Shown piece by piece: positions 9,539 to 18,743 of a DNA stretch of 32,891 nucleotides. The stretch is from an uncultured Schlesneria sp. Its GTDB lineage: Bacteria; Planctomycetota; Planctomycetia; Planctomycetales; Planctomycetaceae. The notes beneath the pieces are model-generated. The model did no database searches. It was not told where the DNA came from and saw nothing but the letters and a program-made list of their open reading frames with translations. Location of the stretch: the NCBI GenBank assembly GCA_903840265.1, contig CAIMFH010000176.1, positions 1-32,891 on the forward strand, in the 5' to 3' direction. The stretch's first letter is position 1. Each line of letters begins with the position of its first letter. Both the position numbers and the translations under genes were made by a program.

Positions 9539-12500
9539 TCAGGCCTTCCCCTTACGCTCACTCGGCGGTTGCTTCCAACCCTTCAGTTGCTGACGCAGAT
9601 CCTTCAAGCTGAGGGAAGGAGCGGGCAGGCGGAGTTGTGGTTCGACGTCCTGAACGGGCGCGTCGCCCGATTCGTGAACGTGCTGCAATTCTTCCTCGAG
9701 AGTCTTTAACCACGCTGGCACATCCAGGCCCGAGCCCGATGTGGTCTTCAGGTAGTCTTCAACGGCGGACTGCATTTGCTGGAACGAAGGGGACTCTGGA
9801 CGGCCAGCATCCGCATCCTCGCAGGCGGGGCGGATTTGAGCGAGCATGTGATTGACCGCGAGCGGCTTCACGAATCGTTCCTGCAGGTGGTTCGTGACCG
9901 ATGGCAGACGCATCCCGTACTTCTTCTGCAAGGACTCCAACTCTTCGAGGTGCGTCTCCGCCATCTCTTCCGTGCGAAGCGTAAACACGTCTTCCCAGAT
10001 CGTGGCGGCTTCTGGTTTGCCTTGCCGAGCGAGCACTTCATGGGCGACAGCAACCGGCAGCAGGTTCCAGGCATCTCGATCGTAGGCCGTTTCCAGCCTT
10101 AAGAAGTCGAGCAGACTGTAGAACTGTTCGCCGTAGTCGGATTGAGTCGTGGTGGTGTTGTATTCGAGGAATCGGTCGAACTTTTCGACCACCACCTGGT
10201 AGATCAGGTGCAGATGCTCAGCCGCCTCGTCGCGATCGACTTTACCGTTTCGCAGATCCTCTAACAGACGCACTGGATGCAGCGGATCTTCGTGTTGTTC
10301 AAGGTACTCAAGGAACTTGGGCACGCCGCTATGCAGGATCGCCCGAACGTTCCCCAAGGTCAGAACTCGAGCATTCAGAATGTCCGAGCCATAGGTTTTG
10401 ACGAACTTTGACGTGTCATCCCAGACGGAATCGACTTTCAATGCTTCGACCGATGACAGACGCATGGTGCTGCTGTGTTCGAGCCATTGATCGAGATAGA
10501 GCTCGACAATCTCACCAACGACTTCGATCAGTTCTTCGTCTGTGAAGCGTCCACCCTTCCATTCGCGAGAGGCTCGGACGACGCATTCCAAGGTGTTGCG
10601 CAGAGCGATCCGGAACAGTCGGTCAAACTCGGTGACAGCCATCCCGCGCGGGCGAGAGACGCGTTCCATATGCCGAGCTGTCTTCAGCAGATGCCACGTT
10701 TCTCGCAACAGCCCCAGCTGCGGAAGGTGCGCCAACAAGAAACGTACCACCATTTGCTGTGATCGCGCGGTCAGAATCTGCTTGGGATCGCCACCGTGTT
10801 CCAATGGGACATAGAGCAGCGGTTTTCGTTGCAGCGACTTCAGCAATCCTGGCAGCACGCGGCGCACTTCGCCTTCGTTGCGCTGCATGATCCCGCGATA
10901 CATGTCGATGACGCGAACATCTTCGGCGGTGCTGCGGACGGTTTGATCTTCCGGCGACAGAGCACAGGCCAGGCACCACTGCGCCGATCGACAACTGAGC
11001 CACGTCGACAGCCCCGACTGCACCAGGTACAGCTTGGCCTGAAGTTGCGAATCGAATTCCACGTTCGAATCATGCTCGCCACTGGATTCGCCGATGTCGC
11101 CCTTCCAGAGTTCGTCGATGAGACGCGAGAGATCGCTTTGCAACCGCATCGAATGCTCGAGCCAATGGCGCAACGATTCAGCCTGTTTGGATCGACTCGC
11201 TTTGGCGTCCTTGGAGGAATCGCCTTCCGAAACCAATTCGCGTTCGACCGCCAGGTTCGCGGCCATCTGCCACAACTGAGCCATCATGCGCAGAAACTTC
11301 AGTCGCGGATCAAGCCGTTTTTCGAGACGTTCGTATTCGGTGTCGCCGTCCAGCTTGGATCGTTCATCCATGATGGGGCCTTCCTGGCCGTCATCAGTGC
11401 TGTCTCGGTAAACGACTTCGTCATAGGCCGCGCTGAACAGCTCGTCCTCTTCCTCTGCGCCTTCTTCATCAGAGTCGTGAAGTTCGTCCGACTGCGATTT
11501 GTCGCTGGGCCAGTGGCTGCCGCCGTTTGGTTCCTCAACGATGACCCCTTGTCGGAAGACGGGAGACTGCCAGAGTTCACCGGCATTGGCTTCCAGGTAG
11601 TCGAACATGCGGCGAACGATCGGCCAGGGATCTTCCCGCGACGACGTTCCCTCTTCGGCCACGATCCCCATCCACCAGAGCATCAAGTCTTCGAACGACA
11701 GATGTCCGGCTTCGAGTCCCACCACATCATGCTGGCTGAGCCACTGCATCAGCAGCCCCAACGCCGCGACGCGATCTCGGCGTTCCAGCAATGCTGAAAC
11801 GACCTGAGCGTAGGCCTTGGATGACTGGAACTGTTCGACATGTCGTCGCCAGAACGAGATGTCCCCCGCGGATTCGCCCGCTTCGCGCCACTCGGCCAAC
11901 GCGCGCGCGACGTGCGATGCAGAGTCAAGCTGTTCATGAGCCGCCACACGCGGCAGATCTTCGACGGTGACGGTGCCGAACCGATCCCAGAACTGAGCCA
12001 GATTTTGATATCGAATCGAAATGCTTTCGGCGAGTTCCTTCTCACCCCGAGCGGCCGCTTCTTCCAATGCTCGCGAGTAGGCATCTAGCAGCGATTCCAT
12101 AATGTGATACAGCATCTCGACCCGCTGATCGGGGACGCTGTCTTCACGAGACGAAAAGAGCGGAAACAGCCCTTGGAATCCCAGGACATTCCAGGGGTCA
12201 ACCAATGCTCCGCATTCGATGCCACGATGCAGGTAGTCTTCCGCTTCGAGGAGCAGGCGAGCCGAATCCGACAGCTTCCCCTGTTCGACAACTCGGCGAG
12301 CCGAATGGGCACGGCAGAGGACTTCGCATTCGAACCGCGCCGACGCACAGGGAATGATCGAGGCCTGCCGCAGACTCGCTTCCGCGTAACCCATCCGTGC
12401 GAACAAATAAGCCAGTTGACGACGCTGTACTTGTTGCGCGCCATACTGAGCCAGATACATGTTCAGCGCCTGTCGAACATGTCCGAAGGGCTGGCGAGTC

Positions 12501-13519
12501 AGCTTGGTATGTCGAGCCAGTCGCTTGGCTCGCGCACCCGACGCCGTCTTCACCAGGCGTGAATAAAACTCATCCCGCTGACGGGCCACGCGTGGCAGCA
12601 ATGAGGAAAGGGTGACATTCGAATCGTGGCATTCCGGGCCATCTCCACTGATCGATGACGCCATCAAGATGGTGCCACACAGCACGGCGGAAACGTCGAA
12701 TAGAATTTCTTCGGGATCAACTCGCTTCTGCTTCGCGGCCCAGTCGAGCAGGGCGTCCAGGATCACTTTGCGAACCACAAATCGGCGGTATCGTCCCTTG
12801 ATATCAATCTGATGCGGATCCCACTCCCCGAACAGATAGTTGGTGCGTTTATTGGCCGGATGAATGTGGTCATGAGCGCGAAGATCAACCGCCAGTTCGT
12901 CCATCATCTCGATGTCGAAGTACGCTTCGGCTAAGACTTCCGCTGGCATCTCGCGCAGCAGCCCTAACGCACGTTCCACGACGGCACGATAGGGACCGTG
13001 AGCCACTCCTGCGCCGCGCAAAAACAAGGGCAGTGGACGGAACCGCTCGTGTGAGTATGGTTCCATTTTCTGGCCATTTTCCAACACGGCAATGGGACGG
13101 TAGCCGAGGAAATCGTTCAAACGCCGCAGCGCGCCAGCGACAATGCGATCGGTCTCATCCCAGGCTGCTCCCTGCTCCAAGACCGCTTCAAACACTTTTG
13201 CGAGGAAGAACGATTGTTGAAAATCCTCTTCTTTCAAATGGAACAGCAAATCTCGGTGGTGTTCGCGATACGCGGGCAAGGCGTGGTCGAAGGTCAGCGA
13301 AATCACCTGCTCAGCTTGCGAGCTGTCGCCGAACGTGGGGGAGGATGATTTCAGATCCGACAGAACGGCGCGCAATGTCGCTGCCAGATCCTTCCAGGGA
13401 ACCGTTCGCATGAGTTCGTCGAGGTTTCGCTGAAACTTTGAATCTGGGCGACCTCCCGAAAAGTTCAAATATCCCAGCAGTTCAGTCGCGATCGCTGCCT
13501 CTTGCGTGCGAATCTTCAA
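9539..13519 (-). CDS. Very large conserved-type hypothetical protein, 1326 aa, mostly alpha-helical
   Basis: This is a single uninterrupted frame. The likely start is a TTG at 13519 (protein begins MKIRTQEAAIATELLGYLNF), with GGGGG/GGA upstream. The first downstream Met (residue 37) would remove a sequence that looks structured. No signal peptide or membrane helix is seen. The protein is rich in Leu, Glu, Arg and Ala and reads as consecutive helices, possibly TPR- or HEAT-like scaffolding, though I cannot fit a repeat. Features include FGEWDPHQIDIKGRYRRFVV near residue 230, an acidic low-complexity stretch at about 670-715 (SDEEGAEEEDELF), and a basic C terminus (GWKQPPSERKGKA). No catalytic motif is recognised. 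It is divergent from the ExbB/ExbD-like operon across a 382-base gap. Confidence 0.8.
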   Translation of the reverse strand: MKIRTQEAAIATELLGYLNFSGGRPDSKFQRNLDELMRTVPWKDLAATLRAVLSDLKSSSPTFGDSSQAEQVISLTFDHALPAYREHHRDLLFHLKEEDFQQSFFLAKVFEAVLEQGAAWDETDRIVAGALRRLNDFLGYRPIAVLENGQKMEPYSHERFRPLPLFLRGAGVAHGPYRAVVERALGLLREMPAEVLAEAYFDIEMMDELAVDLRAHDHIHPANKRTNYLFGEWDPHQIDIKGRYRRFVVRKVILDALLDWAAKQKRVDPEEILFDVSAVLCGTILMASSISGDGPECHDSNVTLSSLLPRVARQRDEFYSRLVKTASGARAKRLARHTKLTRQPFGHVRQALNMYLAQYGAQQVQRRQLAYLFARMGYAEASLRQASIIPCASARFECEVLCRAHSARRVVEQGKLSDSARLLLEAEDYLHRGIECGALVDPWNVLGFQGLFPLFSSREDSVPDQRVEMLYHIMESLLDAYSRALEEAAARGEKELAESISIRYQNLAQFWDRFGTVTVEDLPRVAAHEQLDSASHVARALAEWREAGESAGDISFWRRHVEQFQSSKAYAQVVSALLERRDRVAALGLLMQWLSQHDVVGLEAGHLSFEDLMLWWMGIVAEEGTSSREDPWPIVRRMFDYLEANAGELWQSPVFRQGVIVEEPNGGSHWPSDKSQSDELHDSDEEGAEEEDELFSAAYDEVVYRDSTDDGQEGPIMDERSKLDGDTEYERLEKRLDPRLKFLRMMAQLWQMAANLAVERELVSEGDSSKDAKASRSKQAESLRHWLEHSMRLQSDLSRLIDELWKGDIGESSGEHDSNVEFDSQLQAKLYLVQSGLSTWLSCRSAQWCLACALSPEDQTVRSTAEDVRVIDMYRGIMQRNEGEVRRVLPGLLKSLQRKPLLYVPLEHGGDPKQILTARSQQMVVRFLLAHLPQLGLLRETWHLLKTARHMERVSRPRGMAVTEFDRLFRIALRNTLECVVRASREWKGGRFTDEELIEVVGEIVELYLDQWLEHSSTMRLSSVEALKVDSVWDDTSKFVKTYGSDILNARVLTLGNVRAILHSGVPKFLEYLEQHEDPLHPVRLLEDLRNGKVDRDEAAEHLHLIYQVVVEKFDRFLEYNTTTTQSDYGEQFYSLLDFLRLETAYDRDAWNLLPVAVAHEVLARQGKPEAATIWEDVFTLRTEEMAETHLEELESLQKKYGMRLPSVTNHLQERFVKPLAVNHMLAQIRPACEDADAGRPESPSFQQMQSAVEDYLKTTSGSGLDVPAWLKTLEEELQHVHESGDAPVQDVEPQLRLPAPSLSLKDLRQQLKGWKQPPSERKGKA

Positions 13520-13901: not shown

Positions 13902-15368
13902 ATGTCGAAAACGAAGATGGCATCCAATGTTAGGCTGATTGATCGCGTGATCAATGGGATTGTGACCTCTGCGTCTCTATGGGGCACAGCGGTTACATTT
14001 GCATTCTATGCTGCGTTACCGTTCCTGCCCATCGACCAGCAATCAATGGGCCGTTACTTCACCGCGCACTGGATCGAATATGCCACCACGGGCCTCTTCT
14101 TCATCGGAATGGCGACGCTGCTGATGAAGTCAGCTCGAATTCCGTTCGAGCGAAGTGCCCTGAATGCCGACTTGCTCGATGGTTTGAAACTGGACCCAAA
14201 ACTGGATGCGGTCGGTGCTGCGAAGGGAATTGGCACCCACTTAGACTTGGTCGCACGACGCGCCGAAGAGTCATTGTTGGTCCGACGAATTCGCGATGTT
14301 GTCGAATATGTCGTCGGCCGCCGATCTGCCGACGGCCTGGAAGGGCACCTCAATTATCTGTCTGACCTCGCCTCGGGTCGCCTGCATGACGGTTATGCGC
14401 TGATCCGAACCATCACCTGGGCGGTCCCCATTCTGGGATTTCTGGGGACGGTGATCGGGATCACGATGGCCATCGCCAACATCACGCCCGATCAACTGCA
14501 AACGTCTCTTCCGGAAGTGACCGCGGGTTTGGCCGTGGCTTTCGATACGACGGCTCTGTCTCTGGCATTGTCGATGATTCTGGTGTTTGGGACCTTCGTC
14601 ATCGAGCGCGCAGAACAACGAATTCTGGACGACGTGGAAGACTTAGGGACAAAAAACCTGATTGCCATATTCCCCACCGCAGGAGTTCCAACGGGCCCGC
14701 TGGTCGCCGCCGAAGCGGAAGCCGCCGCTCAGTTGCTGCAGCGTACTGAGGGAATGATCAACTGGCAGATGGAAATGTGGCAGACATCGTTGGAGTCGCT
14801 CCGCGATCGCTGGACTTCGACCCTGTCCCGCCAACAGGAACTGCTGGATACCGCCTTCCAGTCGGGGCTGACGGGGGTACTCACCGATCACTCCGAACAA
14901 CTGGCTGCTGCACGCACCGAGTTCGTAAAAGCCTTTGAACAATCGTCGCTGACAATCGCCAGACAAGTTGCGGAATCGCAGACCGCGATGATCGAGCAAC
15001 AAGATCGCAGCGCGATGCTGATTTCTGAAACCTGGCAGGCGTTTCACTCGGATTTGACGGCAGCTCGTGATGGCCAAACGCTATCGATGACTCGGCTGAC
15101 TGATTCGGTGACCGGGGCTGCGCTCGGTTGGAGCGATCGCCTGGAAGATGCGACTCGCGGGATGACCGACCAATTGCAGGAGCTGCGTCAGCAGGGAACC
15201 ACGTTGCTGAGATTGACCGAACAAGAGTCACAGCTTGTCCGTCTCGAAGAACGCCTTGCACAGAACCTGGATTCCGTTCGAGTGGTCGATACGTTGGAAG
15301 AAACCCTGCTGAACTTGAATGCGGCTGTCAACCTGATGACCGCCCGAGTGAAAGGCAAAGCGGCGTGA
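13902..15368 (+). CDS. MotA/TolQ/ExbB-family proton channel protein with long C-terminal helical tail
   Basis: The protein has 488 residues. Four membrane segments are seen at about 20-42, 57-76, 171-193 and 208-234. The last two carry the family signature: GFLGTVIGITMA (179-190, with Thr183) and AFDTTALSLALSMI (213-226, with Thr216/Thr217), positions where the ExbB/TolQ pore carries conserved Thr. The loop between helices 2 and 3 (about 95 residues) would be cytoplasmic. Residues about 265-485 form a long predicted coiled-coil tail rich in Gln, Glu and Ala, far beyond a normal ExbB (about 240). A tail after the channel is also known in ZorA of Zorya defence systems. It is the first gene of a three-gene operon with two ExbD-like partners (15451, 17607). 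It probably forms a pmf-driven pentameric stator. Confidence 0.85.
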   Translation: MSKTKMASNVRLIDRVINGIVTSASLWGTAVTFAFYAALPFLPIDQQSMGRYFTAHWIEYATTGLFFIGMATLLMKSARIPFERSALNADLLDGLKLDPKLDAVGAAKGIGTHLDLVARRAEESLLVRRIRDVVEYVVGRRSADGLEGHLNYLSDLASGRLHDGYALIRTITWAVPILGFLGTVIGITMAIANITPDQLQTSLPEVTAGLAVAFDTTALSLALSMILVFGTFVIERAEQRILDDVEDLGTKNLIAIFPTAGVPTGPLVAAEAEAAAQLLQRTEGMINWQMEMWQTSLESLRDRWTSTLSRQQELLDTAFQSGLTGVLTDHSEQLAAARTEFVKAFEQSSLTIARQVAESQTAMIEQQDRSAMLISETWQAFHSDLTAARDGQTLSMTRLTDSVTGAALGWSDRLEDATRGMTDQLQELRQQGTTLLRLTEQESQLVRLEERLAQNLDSVRVVDTLEETLLNLNAAVNLMTARVKGKAA

Positions 15369-15450
15369 CACTTTGGTCGATCGCACCCGTGTCTGGTCGG
15401 ACGATCGCTGACGCAAGTTCTTCTCGCGTTCCTTCGAGTGGTTGATTTTC

Positions 15451-17610
15451 ATGAGTCGACGTCCCAAGAGTTCGCAGTCCGTTGCACTGTTCCCATTTCT
15501 GGCAGTGTTGGTCTGTACCATGGGGGCGCTGATTTTCTTGTTGCTTGTCACGACGCGGATGATCAGCGATCAGGCGAAAGCCGAAGCTGTGGCCGCGGCG
15601 AATCCCGCCCCGCAACTTCCGCTGCTTAGTGTCACCAGCACAGAACCCTCACCCTCTCCCGAATTGCCGCCGACCTATGCGATCGAGCCCGATGAGCCCG
15701 CCGAACCGACCATCGATGTTCGGGCGATCGCTGTTGAGAAGCGTCAGCGGGAGTTAGATGCATTGACCGCCCAGTGGCAGGGACGAATCAATGAACTGAA
15801 CGGTGCCCGCGAAGAGCGAGTTCGGTTGCTATCACAACGACAACAGCTCAGCAAGGCGGCGGCTCAACGCGTCGCATCAATGCAGGCCGAGTTGTTGGAC
15901 CTGGAAGTCAAGCTGGGAAGAATGACCGGAGAACTTTCGGCGTCTGCCGTGGGAGAAGGAACCGTCAAAGAACGCATCGAGCTTGAAACGCAAATTAAAG
16001 AATTGAAGCGTCGACTGCGTGCCGCACAGCAATCATCGAGCGACGACAAATTCGAAGTCGTCCCCTTCGACATCACCACCGGGACTTCTCGTCGACCAAT
16101 CTTGATCGAATGCACGGCGACTGGGCTGCGATTCATCCCTGAGGACATCCGCATCACGCCAGATGACTTGATGGGATTTACGCCGCATGTCAATCCGCTG
16201 GTTGTCGGGGCAAGTGCCCTGGTGAATTACTGGACCGCCTGGAATATTCATCAACCGAATCCTGCTCGCGAACCGGAACCGTATGTGTTGCTGCTGGTCA
16301 GGCCGAGTGGGACGATTGCCTATTACGTCGCCATGAAAATGATGGCTGATCTGAAGCAACCGCATGGTTACGAGCTAATCGAAGAAGATACGGTCCTGCA
16401 AATGCCACCGGTTGACGCCGGTGCGAAAGCCGCTTGCGAGGCCGCGATCAATCGATTGCTGGCCGAGCGAAACCAGGCCATGCGACAAGCGAGTGCTGGC
16501 TTCGGTGTTGGACGGGGGCGATACGGGGGTGGCACTGGCGGCGGGCCTGGAGGCAGTAGGGCACCCGGTGGAGGTGGACTATCAGGTGGCGGCCAGCCTG
16601 GCGGTGGCAGTCTGCCCGCCGGAAATGCAGGGGGGCGGCCTGAAGGGGCAGGCAAGCCAGGCGGCGGGACAGGTGACACTCCGGGTGGACCTGGAGAATT
16701 CGCATTGTCGGACATCATGGATAAGCAAGAATCGGGTAGCGGCGTCTGGGAGCGAGTTGAAAACTTCGAAGGATCGAAACGGGGCTCGAACGGCGGATCC
16801 GATAAAACAGCATCGGCTCAAGGTACTGCCGGCGCACCGCGAACAGGTGCCCGAGAGGGAACTGGCGCGGGAAGCGGTTCATCCAGGCAAATGGTGAAAG
16901 CCAGCGGTGCAGGGGATCAACAGGGGACGGCTTCCAAGCCGGGGACCGTGCCAAAATCATCTGGATCGAGTGCGTCGTCGGGGATTGAGCAACTGGAGGA
17001 CGAAGGTGAAGAAGAAGGGACTGACGATAGCGAACCAGGTGGTATGAAATCCCGTCCGGATATCGGACTCGGCAGTTCTGGTAAGAGGTCTATACCCGTC
17101 GAGGATCATCGCTCCAAGAAACACAAGCCTTCCGATCGCGATGCGCCGACAAGTCCGGAAAATCTCGCTAGCCGCCATTGGGGGATTTCAGAACCCGGAG
17201 CGGCGATTGGGCTGGAGCGAGAAATTCGAATTGACGTGGAGCCGAATCGGTATGTGATTGGCAAGAAACATGGCGTTCCGCTCATCGACACCGATGCGCG
17301 AGAAGACACCTTTGTGAAGGTGGTGACTGTCATTGATTTGCAAGCCCGCGAATGGGGCAAGCCGCCGCAGGGATTCTTCTGGAAACCGAGCGTCCGATTC
17401 GTGATTGCCGAAGGGGGCGATGCGAACTACGAACGCATCCAATCGATGTTTGAACGGGCCGGGTTGTCGACCAGCCGTGAGTATCCGCACGATCACCCCG
17501 CGGAAAAGACCGAGACCGCCAAGGCGACTCCTCCGACTGCAACCACGCATACTCCTGCACCGGCGACCCCGAAAACGACTCGTCGGCTATTTAGAGGAAT
17601 CATGCGATGA
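15451..17610 (+). CDS. ExbD-like single-span membrane protein with two large extracytoplasmic domains and a Gly-rich linker (Asp-less)
   Basis: The protein has 719 residues. The ATG at 15451 is preferred over a TTG three codons earlier. The basic start (MSRRPKSS) is followed by one membrane helix (about 11-34, SVALFPFLAVLVCTMGALIF), so the remainder should be periplasmic. A Pro-rich stretch (50-90) and a coiled coil (about 95-195) lead to an alpha/beta domain at about 200-320 (RPILIECTATGLRFIPEDI ... YVLLLVRPSGTIAYYVAMKM). Residues 345-415 are Gly-rich (GGGTGGGPGG, GGGQPGGGSLP), and 415-570 are Ser/Gly/Glu low complexity. A second domain spans about 588-680 (REIRIDVEPNRY ... PSVRFVIAEGG). The residue matching the ExbD channel Asp is Ala18. 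The gene overlaps the next by four bases (ATGA). Confidence 0.8.
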   Translation: MSRRPKSSQSVALFPFLAVLVCTMGALIFLLLVTTRMISDQAKAEAVAAANPAPQLPLLSVTSTEPSPSPELPPTYAIEPDEPAEPTIDVRAIAVEKRQRELDALTAQWQGRINELNGAREERVRLLSQRQQLSKAAAQRVASMQAELLDLEVKLGRMTGELSASAVGEGTVKERIELETQIKELKRRLRAAQQSSSDDKFEVVPFDITTGTSRRPILIECTATGLRFIPEDIRITPDDLMGFTPHVNPLVVGASALVNYWTAWNIHQPNPAREPEPYVLLLVRPSGTIAYYVAMKMMADLKQPHGYELIEEDTVLQMPPVDAGAKAACEAAINRLLAERNQAMRQASAGFGVGRGRYGGGTGGGPGGSRAPGGGGLSGGGQPGGGSLPAGNAGGRPEGAGKPGGGTGDTPGGPGEFALSDIMDKQESGSGVWERVENFEGSKRGSNGGSDKTASAQGTAGAPRTGAREGTGAGSGSSRQMVKASGAGDQQGTASKPGTVPKSSGSSASSGIEQLEDEGEEEGTDDSEPGGMKSRPDIGLGSSGKRSIPVEDHRSKKHKPSDRDAPTSPENLASRHWGISEPGAAIGLEREIRIDVEPNRYVIGKKHGVPLIDTDAREDTFVKVVTVIDLQAREWGKPPQGFFWKPSVRFVIAEGGDANYERIQSMFERAGLSTSREYPHDHPAEKTETAKATPPTATTHTPAPATPKTTRRLFRGIMR

Positions 17611-18743
17611 GTCGTCGCCGCGAATTCGAAATCATGTTCGGTTCAGATTCGTTTCTGGATGTCGTCGCGAATATCGTCGGCATTCTGATCATTCTGATTG
17701 TGATTGCCGGCGTCCGGATTAGTAAGAGTCCGCCCAAAGCCTTGACGAGCGCGACGCCAGGCCTGGGCCTGCCCGCCGAGTTGACGTCCCCTGCACCCGA
17801 GACGCCGCTTGTGTCTGAAGCGACGGATCCCGAACCCCTCATCGCCGAAGTGATGCCGGAATCCGAGCCAGACATCGCCGCCGAACCGCTGCCAGAACTG
17901 GCTGCTCCTCCAACGCTGGTGACGCGAGTCCAGGAATTGGAGGCAGAGATCGCCGGGATCACGTTTGAGTCCAAAAAGCTTGGCGATTCGCTGGCTGCCA
18001 GTAATCGCCAGCAGTCGGATATCGATCTGCGGTTGCAAACGGCACGTGGGCTTCTGGAAGACCGCAAGAGCGAAATGAGTGTCGCAGAGGCTCGCGGCGC
18101 GCAACAGAAACTCGATCTCGAACTCACTCGACAAGCCGCTGCTCGATTGTTGGCTCAGGTCACGGAACTCGAGAAGAAGTCGCCGCCTGCCGAAAAGCTC
18201 GAACATCGAATCACCCCGGTCAGTAAGACGGTCAATGGGCGCGAGCTGCACTTTCGCTTGGAAAAGAACCGCGTGGCAGAGGTCCCGATCGACGCGCTGG
18301 TCGAGCGATTGAAAGAGCACATCGACCGTCGCAAAGACTGGATTGTGAAAAATAAGCAACATAAGGGAATGGTCGGCCCGATTGGCGGCTTTAACCTGGA
18401 GTACATCATTGGCGTCGATATGGTCACCGGCCTGGAAGAGCTTCGCTCCGGGATGGGCGGCTACCGGATGACCATGCGATATTGGGAAATTCATCCCGAG
18501 GACACGCTGCGGGGCGAACCGGAAGATGTCGCGCTGTCTCAAGGCTCCCGGTTCTATCAGGTCCTCGTGAACGCCGGCCAGGACACCACGCTGACGTTCT
18601 GGGTCTATCCCGACAGCTATCAGCTCTATCGCAAGCTCCAGGCGTTTGTTCACGAGCAGGGATTCCCCCTCGCGGCCCGCCCACTGCCACATGGCGTCGC
18701 GATTTCGGGCTCGCCGAACGGCACGAAGTCAGCCAGCCAATAG
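17607..18743 (+). CDS. ExbD-like single-span membrane protein with coiled coil and C-terminal extracytoplasmic domain (Asp-containing)
   Basis: The protein has 378 residues and starts inside the stop codon of the previous gene (ATGA), a sign of translational coupling. The N terminus MSRRREFEIMFGSDSFLDVV leads to a membrane helix at about 16-36 (FLDVVANIVGILIILIVIAG). Its Asp18 occupies the place of the proton-carrying Asp in ExbD/TolR. A Pro/Glu-rich segment (40-105) and a coiled coil (about 105-190) follow. The C-terminal domain (about 205-370) runs from GRELHFRLEKNRVAEVPIDAL to TLTFWVYPDSYQLYRKLQAF and GFPLAARPLPHG, and resembles both domains of the upstream partner. No OmpA/peptidoglycan-binding domain is seen. 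It should sit with its partner in the ExbB-like pentamer. Confidence 0.8.
   Translation: MSRRREFEIMFGSDSFLDVVANIVGILIILIVIAGVRISKSPPKALTSATPGLGLPAELTSPAPETPLVSEATDPEPLIAEVMPESEPDIAAEPLPELAAPPTLVTRVQELEAEIAGITFESKKLGDSLAASNRQQSDIDLRLQTARGLLEDRKSEMSVAEARGAQQKLDLELTRQAAARLLAQVTELEKKSPPAEKLEHRITPVSKTVNGRELHFRLEKNRVAEVPIDALVERLKEHIDRRKDWIVKNKQHKGMVGPIGGFNLEYIIGVDMVTGLEELRSGMGGYRMTMRYWEIHPEDTLRGEPEDVALSQGSRFYQVLVNAGQDTTLTFWVYPDSYQLYRKLQAFVHEQGFPLAARPLPHGVAISGSPNGTKSASQ

Follow-up and report, generated by a model that had tools for sequence, protein, structure and literature searches.

A planctomycete operon encoding a putative proton-driven motor, with a two-protein axle that would usually carry a single proton site

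We describe three genes, here called Q, B and D, in the DNA of an uncultured Schlesneria sp. (family Planctomycetaceae), and we think, on balance, that their products form one proton-driven motor of the 5:2 type, in which the two-helix axle would be a heterodimer of B and D and would usually have only one proton site. The motors ExbBD, TolQR and MotAB each have two helices inside a pentamer, with Asp residues that take up protons, and the models of these motors let the two Asp of the axle work in turn. With a homodimeric axle, it is difficult to find out if both are needed. The sequences compared here provide a natural set of apparent one-Asp heterodimers and two-Asp relatives, with a ring protein that changes along with them, and such a set lets one ask what number of proton sites a rotary motor requires, and which residues of the ring decide it. 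They also define a near-universal and so far unstudied envelope machine of a bacterial family. The newest part of the finding is the ring-coupled switch. A broader proposal is possible but tentative: planctomycetes may have motors with heterodimeric, single-site axles that switched repeatedly between a one-site state with ring protein Q and a two-site state with a paralogous ring protein, Q' (the second acid and the ring being coupled), in which case one Asp would be enough and the ring would set the number needed.

The three genes and their products

The window, that is the whole stretch of 32,891 nucleotides that was analysed, has Q, B and D in a row on its forward strand, as had been noticed in a preliminary description made from the letters alone (an ExbB/TolQ-type gene followed by two single-span proteins). 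Q (13902..15368, 488 aa) is a ring protein of the ExbB/TolQ/MotA type, with a MotA_ExbB domain at residues 138-245 (PF01618 in a Pfam scan, E 5.1e-13, 49.3 bits against a cut-off of 22.9) and a long C-terminal tail past the last membrane helix. Its Asp215 (14544..14546) lies in the motif GLAVAFDTTAL; in the alignment columns this residue is Asn in Q', the paralogue that accompanies those forms of B that carry Asp. B (15451..17610) has 719 aa when read from its ATG (the longest open frame begins upstream, at TTG 15442) and is a single-span protein with an ExbD-like helix lacking the Asp, a coil and two tandem domains that look ExbD/TolR-like. D (17607..18743, 378 aa), which shares its first 4 bases with the end of B, is likewise single-span, with a conserved Asp, a coil and one alpha/beta domain.

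The N termini of B and D align without gaps, as the same description had pointed out: both begin with MSRR, both have F16, L17 and V19 around a variable residue 18, and G25 is aligned as well. Residue 18 corresponds in position to the Asp that binds protons in ExbD/TolR and is indeed Asp in D (17658..17660) and Ala in B (15502..15504). D therefore has the single N-terminal membrane helix with a conserved Asp that is typical of a motor of the ExbBD/TolQR type; Asp on both axle helices is not found here, B having Ala18, and 13 of 100 loci have an Asp-bearing B. Compared with each other, the family profiles of D and B match at E 3.4e-14 (coils included in the comparison). Neither B nor D matched PF02472 (ExbD) in the Pfam scan at E up to 1, and the comparison of their profiles with 17 canonical ExbD was not significant.

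According to the AlphaFold2 model, B continues with a coiled-coil stalk (residues 90-196, 15718..16038, with helices at 90-164 and 170-196), a first extracytoplasmic domain (residues 215-309, 16093..16377), a Gly-rich linker predicted mostly at low confidence (residues 355-562, 16513..17136) and a second extracytoplasmic domain (residues 586-677, 17206..17481). Both outer domains of this predicted model align with ExbD/TolR structures, at moderate Z, so that the earlier view of the extracytoplasmic domains as unlike TolR finds no support in B. In D the modelled stalk covers residues 102-190 (17910..18176, mean pLDDT 82.7) and the alpha/beta domain residues 213-368 (18243..18710).

Upstream, and divergent to the operon, the reverse strand encodes a protein of 1326 aa (9539..13519) of unassigned family, which is the commonest neighbour of such operons (37 of 100 loci; neighbours of other loci were compared by clustering, without annotation). 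It has no Pfam, NCBIfam or PADLOC match, is 48-77% identical in seven aligned relatives and has matches in 165 of the 170 genomes of the family; a weak TPR match (E 0.11) appeared in only one of eight members. Judging from its position only, it may be a partner of the motor. The 17 window proteins scanned include no TonB-, OmpA-, Pal- or TolA-type Pfam family, in agreement with the earlier remark that no TonB-, OmpA- or Pal-like gene is near, and no vWA family.

Conservation of the pair and exchange of the ring

Our first sample contained 110 loci, 9 of them without B or D, and 79 were retained on the basis of score and a readable B helix, with two duplicates removed; among a further 60 loci 34 were duplicates, and among the 26 that were new 5 lacked a D that could be used (each of them with Ala in B and a canonical Q). 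In the 100 distinct loci, residue 18 of D is always Asp (100/100), and B has Ala at this position in 83 loci, Thr in 4 and Asp in 13, which makes 87 Asp-less forms. Of 80 named loci, 52 have the gene order Q-B-D and 77 have B and D together; in the other three D lies less than 440 bases from a contig end. The pairing of B and D is conserved, and the Ala/Asp asymmetry is common, not strict. The preliminary description had asked whether Asp/Ala is conserved, and had named two arguments against a conserved asymmetric motor, Asp18 in homologues of the 719-aa protein and loci with unpaired ExbD-like genes. Ala/Asp is what we find in 83 of 100 loci; it gives way to an Asp-bearing B in 13 and to Thr in 4, with Ser in a related system, so that the first of these arguments does apply in part. 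The pairing stands, except that in one genome the related system has its D and B at separate places.

In the lists of homologues, the best 120 of 945 matches to B have Ala in 95, Asp in 14 and an unreadable site in 11, and the best 120 of 1663 matches to D, taken with the window's own D, have Asp in 119 of 121, the other 2 being unreadable. The loss of Asp appears special to B, since canonical ExbD (PF02472, 102 found) keeps it in 33 of the 34 matches read, from seven genomes and mostly in tandem genes. One canonical ExbD of the window's genome (L221, G000:C201:192900-193274) has Asn at the Asp site, and a tandem partner with Asp. Two matches in a eukaryote transcriptome set (P0012 to D, 82%, and P0126 to B, 76%) most likely represent bacterial contamination.

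The B profile has matches in 163 of the family's 170 genomes, in 129 of the 130 good genomes and in 58 of 58 genera, a few of these matches being weak. Taken with the E value between the B and D profiles, this indicates that the resemblance of the two proteins is not due to chance. Q-B-D is close to a core system of the family, and, being present in nearly every genome, the motor is probably a housekeeping machine of the envelope.

The residue at position 18 of B is associated with the type of ring protein. The adjacent ring gene, where readable, has the canonical GI motif in 79 of 79 loci with Ala or Thr in B (8 more have none adjacent or readable). Twelve Asp-B loci have an adjacent ring gene, which is Q' in 11 and an odd Q in one (L074). 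Q' is recognised by the motifs GFLGTV.HFG and AFNTT, the canonical Q having mostly AFDTT in its last membrane helix. At the Asp-B locus L086 Q' is on the other strand, and L084, also Asp-B, has no adjacent ring gene, its genome showing Q' and no canonical Q. Q' exists as a lone gene too, for instance in the window's own genome (L188:6434-7708, contig C21), without adjoining B or D.

The starred branches of a careful tree of the 100 loci force 7 changes of the Asp label; this tree has long branches and a bootstrap that is not fully settled, and, with the root at the midpoint, the direction of Asp change is inferred. In a test framed post hoc, after the first 79 loci had been seen, with each ring scored simply as canonical Q or otherwise (L074 with its odd Q thus counting as agreeing) and with L079 (truncated Q) excluded, 6 of 6 independent pairs of loci with an adjacent ring gene associate Asp-B with a non-canonical ring (p 0.031); when loci lacking Q are counted too, 6.5 of 7 pairs on average go the same way and 0 the opposite way (p 0.016). 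A quick tree of the same 100 loci gives 5.5 of 6 pairs (median p 0.06), and the first 79 loci yield 2 pairs only (p 0.5), with significance out of reach. L337 (Asp-B, Q') is the sister of L035 (Ala-B, Q). Three Ala-B genomes (those of L036, L037 and L040, G402-G404) have Q' and weaker ring genes only, without canonical Q, that of L066 (G416, also Ala-B) has neither Q nor Q', and Asp215 of Q is itself not strict, being Asn in L105 and Gly in L362 and L372, all with Ala-B. Where the Asp state of B has switched, the ring protein tends to have changed as well, as an association and not as a strict rule. This joint change of Asp state and ring type points to a B helix in the pore position. The ring exchange had not been foreseen in the preliminary description.

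Two related planctomycete systems bear on the history of the site. In system 2 (Q2-B2-D2), linked to the first by its profiles (D-D2 E 3.2e-29, B-B2 E 4.5e-27), B2 is short and has Ser in 17 of 17 loci, and D2 has Asp in 15 of 15. Ser was read by pattern in 119 of the best 120 of 802 B2 matches, and by eye in the remaining one; it stands alongside the AFNTT ring motif in 5 of 16 Q2. System 3, a more distant Q-B-D (L270, L271, L273-L277, L279, L280, L288 and L289), has Asp in both partners (11/11 each), in FSFQDI or FAFQDI and in LLLDTICN and its variants. The simplest history would be an old Asp/Asp pair, then loss of Asp in a common forerunner of B and B2, and finally its return in some B. 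Other arrangements were also seen: at L278 two proteins with an F.SFLDI helix (Asp in both) flank another anchored protein, and a ring gene lies next to them; at L272 a ring gene has a Ser-type B (FPFISVLLCTMG) after it, and the 10 kb fetched showed no D; and in G048 (L173, L174) D2 is about 0.66 Mb away from Q2-B2, so that the pair of system 2 can be split in place.

A mixed axle and its alternatives

Between the helix Gly and the first outer domain B has 146 to 285 residues and D 146 to 293 (79 loci), and the two stalks vary together (Pearson 0.92 and Spearman 0.90, n=79; 0.915 in 100 loci), with a mean B-D difference of 2.4 (s.d. 9.4). With independent contrasts r is 0.86, against 0.10-0.16 in four control pairs (either stalk with the B linker or the Q tail), which give Pearson values of 0.14-0.26 without contrasts. 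In system 2 the stalks are about 160 residues long, with 158-167 for B (13 loci) and 155-161 for D (12 loci), and in its locus L172 both have shrunk together, to 48 and 59. Periplasm width alone does not explain this match, since the two systems differ within one genome: in G291 the B/D stalks of system 1 are 231/221 and those of system 2 are 158/155, and in G266 the corresponding values are 207/208 and 158/155, with anchors of the two systems that differ by about 10 residues. Stalks matched locus by locus argue for a B-D heteromer, although a homodimer of B next to a homodimer of D would fit them too. The asymmetric heterodimer of the preliminary description is partly supported: the stalks favour it, and the 13 Asp-B loci in 100 take away its strictness.

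Following this reading, Q would form a ring of the pentameric ExbB/TolQ/MotA kind around a mixed B/D axle, in the 5:2 arrangement set out for such motors in a part of PMC9389320. Since in most loci only D supplies the proton-binding Asp, the axle would have one active site rather than two, which might halve the proton-driven steps per turn or produce rocking instead of even rotation. There would be two main designs, an Asp-less B with ring Q (mostly AFDTT) and an Asp-bearing B with ring Q' (AFNTT), with one active proton site in the former and two in the latter. The equally long, paired coils would carry the motion across the periplasm to three small domains, two from B (apparently of ExbD/TolR type) and one from D; these domains probably hold on to peptidoglycan or to some other partner in the envelope.

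Another arrangement, which we consider unlikely, has a homodimer of D alone as the axle in Q, and B as a TonB/TolA-like arm, its helix outside the ring and its domains pulling on the envelope. The absence of Asp from B in 87 of 100 loci would suit this, as would the much larger size of B, whose pair of outer domains and long, flexible linker might belong to a force arm. However, the B helix aligns gap-free with the D axle helix, the Asp state of B shifts with the ring type, as expected of a helix in the pore, and the two stalks are matched. It is rather improbable that one ring protein serves two homodimeric motors, a proton-driven Q-D2 and an inactive or regulatory Q-B2 (here with two copies each of D and B). 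Lone Q' genes do exist, and homo- and heterodimers of AglQ/AglS are both left open in the relevant passage of PMC9389320, but an Asp-less homodimer in a ring would have no known proton path, and B and D stalk lengths track each other.

We give very little credit to the idea that B is a decaying ExbD copy and its Ala a meaningless loss of function. Ala, Thr, Ser and Asp do all occur at the site; against decay, the B helix is rich in invariant columns (many of those of the whole protein fall there in the alignment), B has a match in 163 of 170 genomes, and its residue changes with the ring type. An anti-phage motor of the Zorya kind seems the least credible reading. Q matches the PADLOC model ZorA2 (E 3.1e-10), and the match, at residues 161-350, reaches past the membrane core common to such proteins, but no ZorB, ZorC, ZorD or ZorE model has a match among 14 window proteins, and the system is near-universal in the family, unlike a patchy defence locus. 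Other PADLOC matches of these 14 proteins are mad2 (1.9e-15, to a methyltransferase), PDC-M43B (5e-4) and weak LmuB matches to the coils of B and D (0.02-0.03).

Comparison with known systems

Like ExbB-ExbD and TolQ-TolR, the system has a ring protein of the same Pfam family, a single-span partner with an Asp helix (D) and, in B, domains that may resemble periplasmic ExbD/TolR. It differs from them in its two unlike partners, in a B that is Asp-less in 87 of 100 loci, in the long coils and the two-domain B, in the lack of a PF02472 match and in the lack of a TonB/TolA-type family among the 17 window proteins. The ExbB-ExbD1-ExbD2 genes of Xanthomonas share the order of a ring gene followed by two ExbD genes; both of these are canonical ExbD. 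ZorA-ZorB of Zorya has in common with Q-B-D a ring protein with a long tail past the membrane core, as well as the ZorA2 match of Q, and is set apart by the unmatched Zor models in 14 window proteins and by the near-universal presence seen here. AglR with AglQ and AglS, of Myxococcus gliding, is similar in combining one ring protein with two ExbD/MotB-like partners, and the heterodimer question is common to both systems; in the passage of PMC9389320 concerned both Agl partners are described with Asp, whereas here one is usually without it.

The closest account is that of planctomycetes and their kin in section 8 of PMC12204202, where heterologous pairs of tolR-like genes accompany a tolQ-like gene. 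Two unlike tolR-like genes and a large neighbouring gene (here that of 1326 aa) are found in both cases; the transducer there is a vWA protein, and there is no vWA among the 17 window proteins here. That section mentions neither an Asp-less partner nor a ring switch, and we found no report of an Asp-less partner or of ring exchange in open-licence papers. The "undescribed system" of the preliminary description is therefore in part already in print, as far as heterologous tolR-like pairs are concerned (PMC12204202, section 8), and what apparently is new, relative to the open-licence papers, is the Asp-less member of the pair and the ring switch that goes with it.
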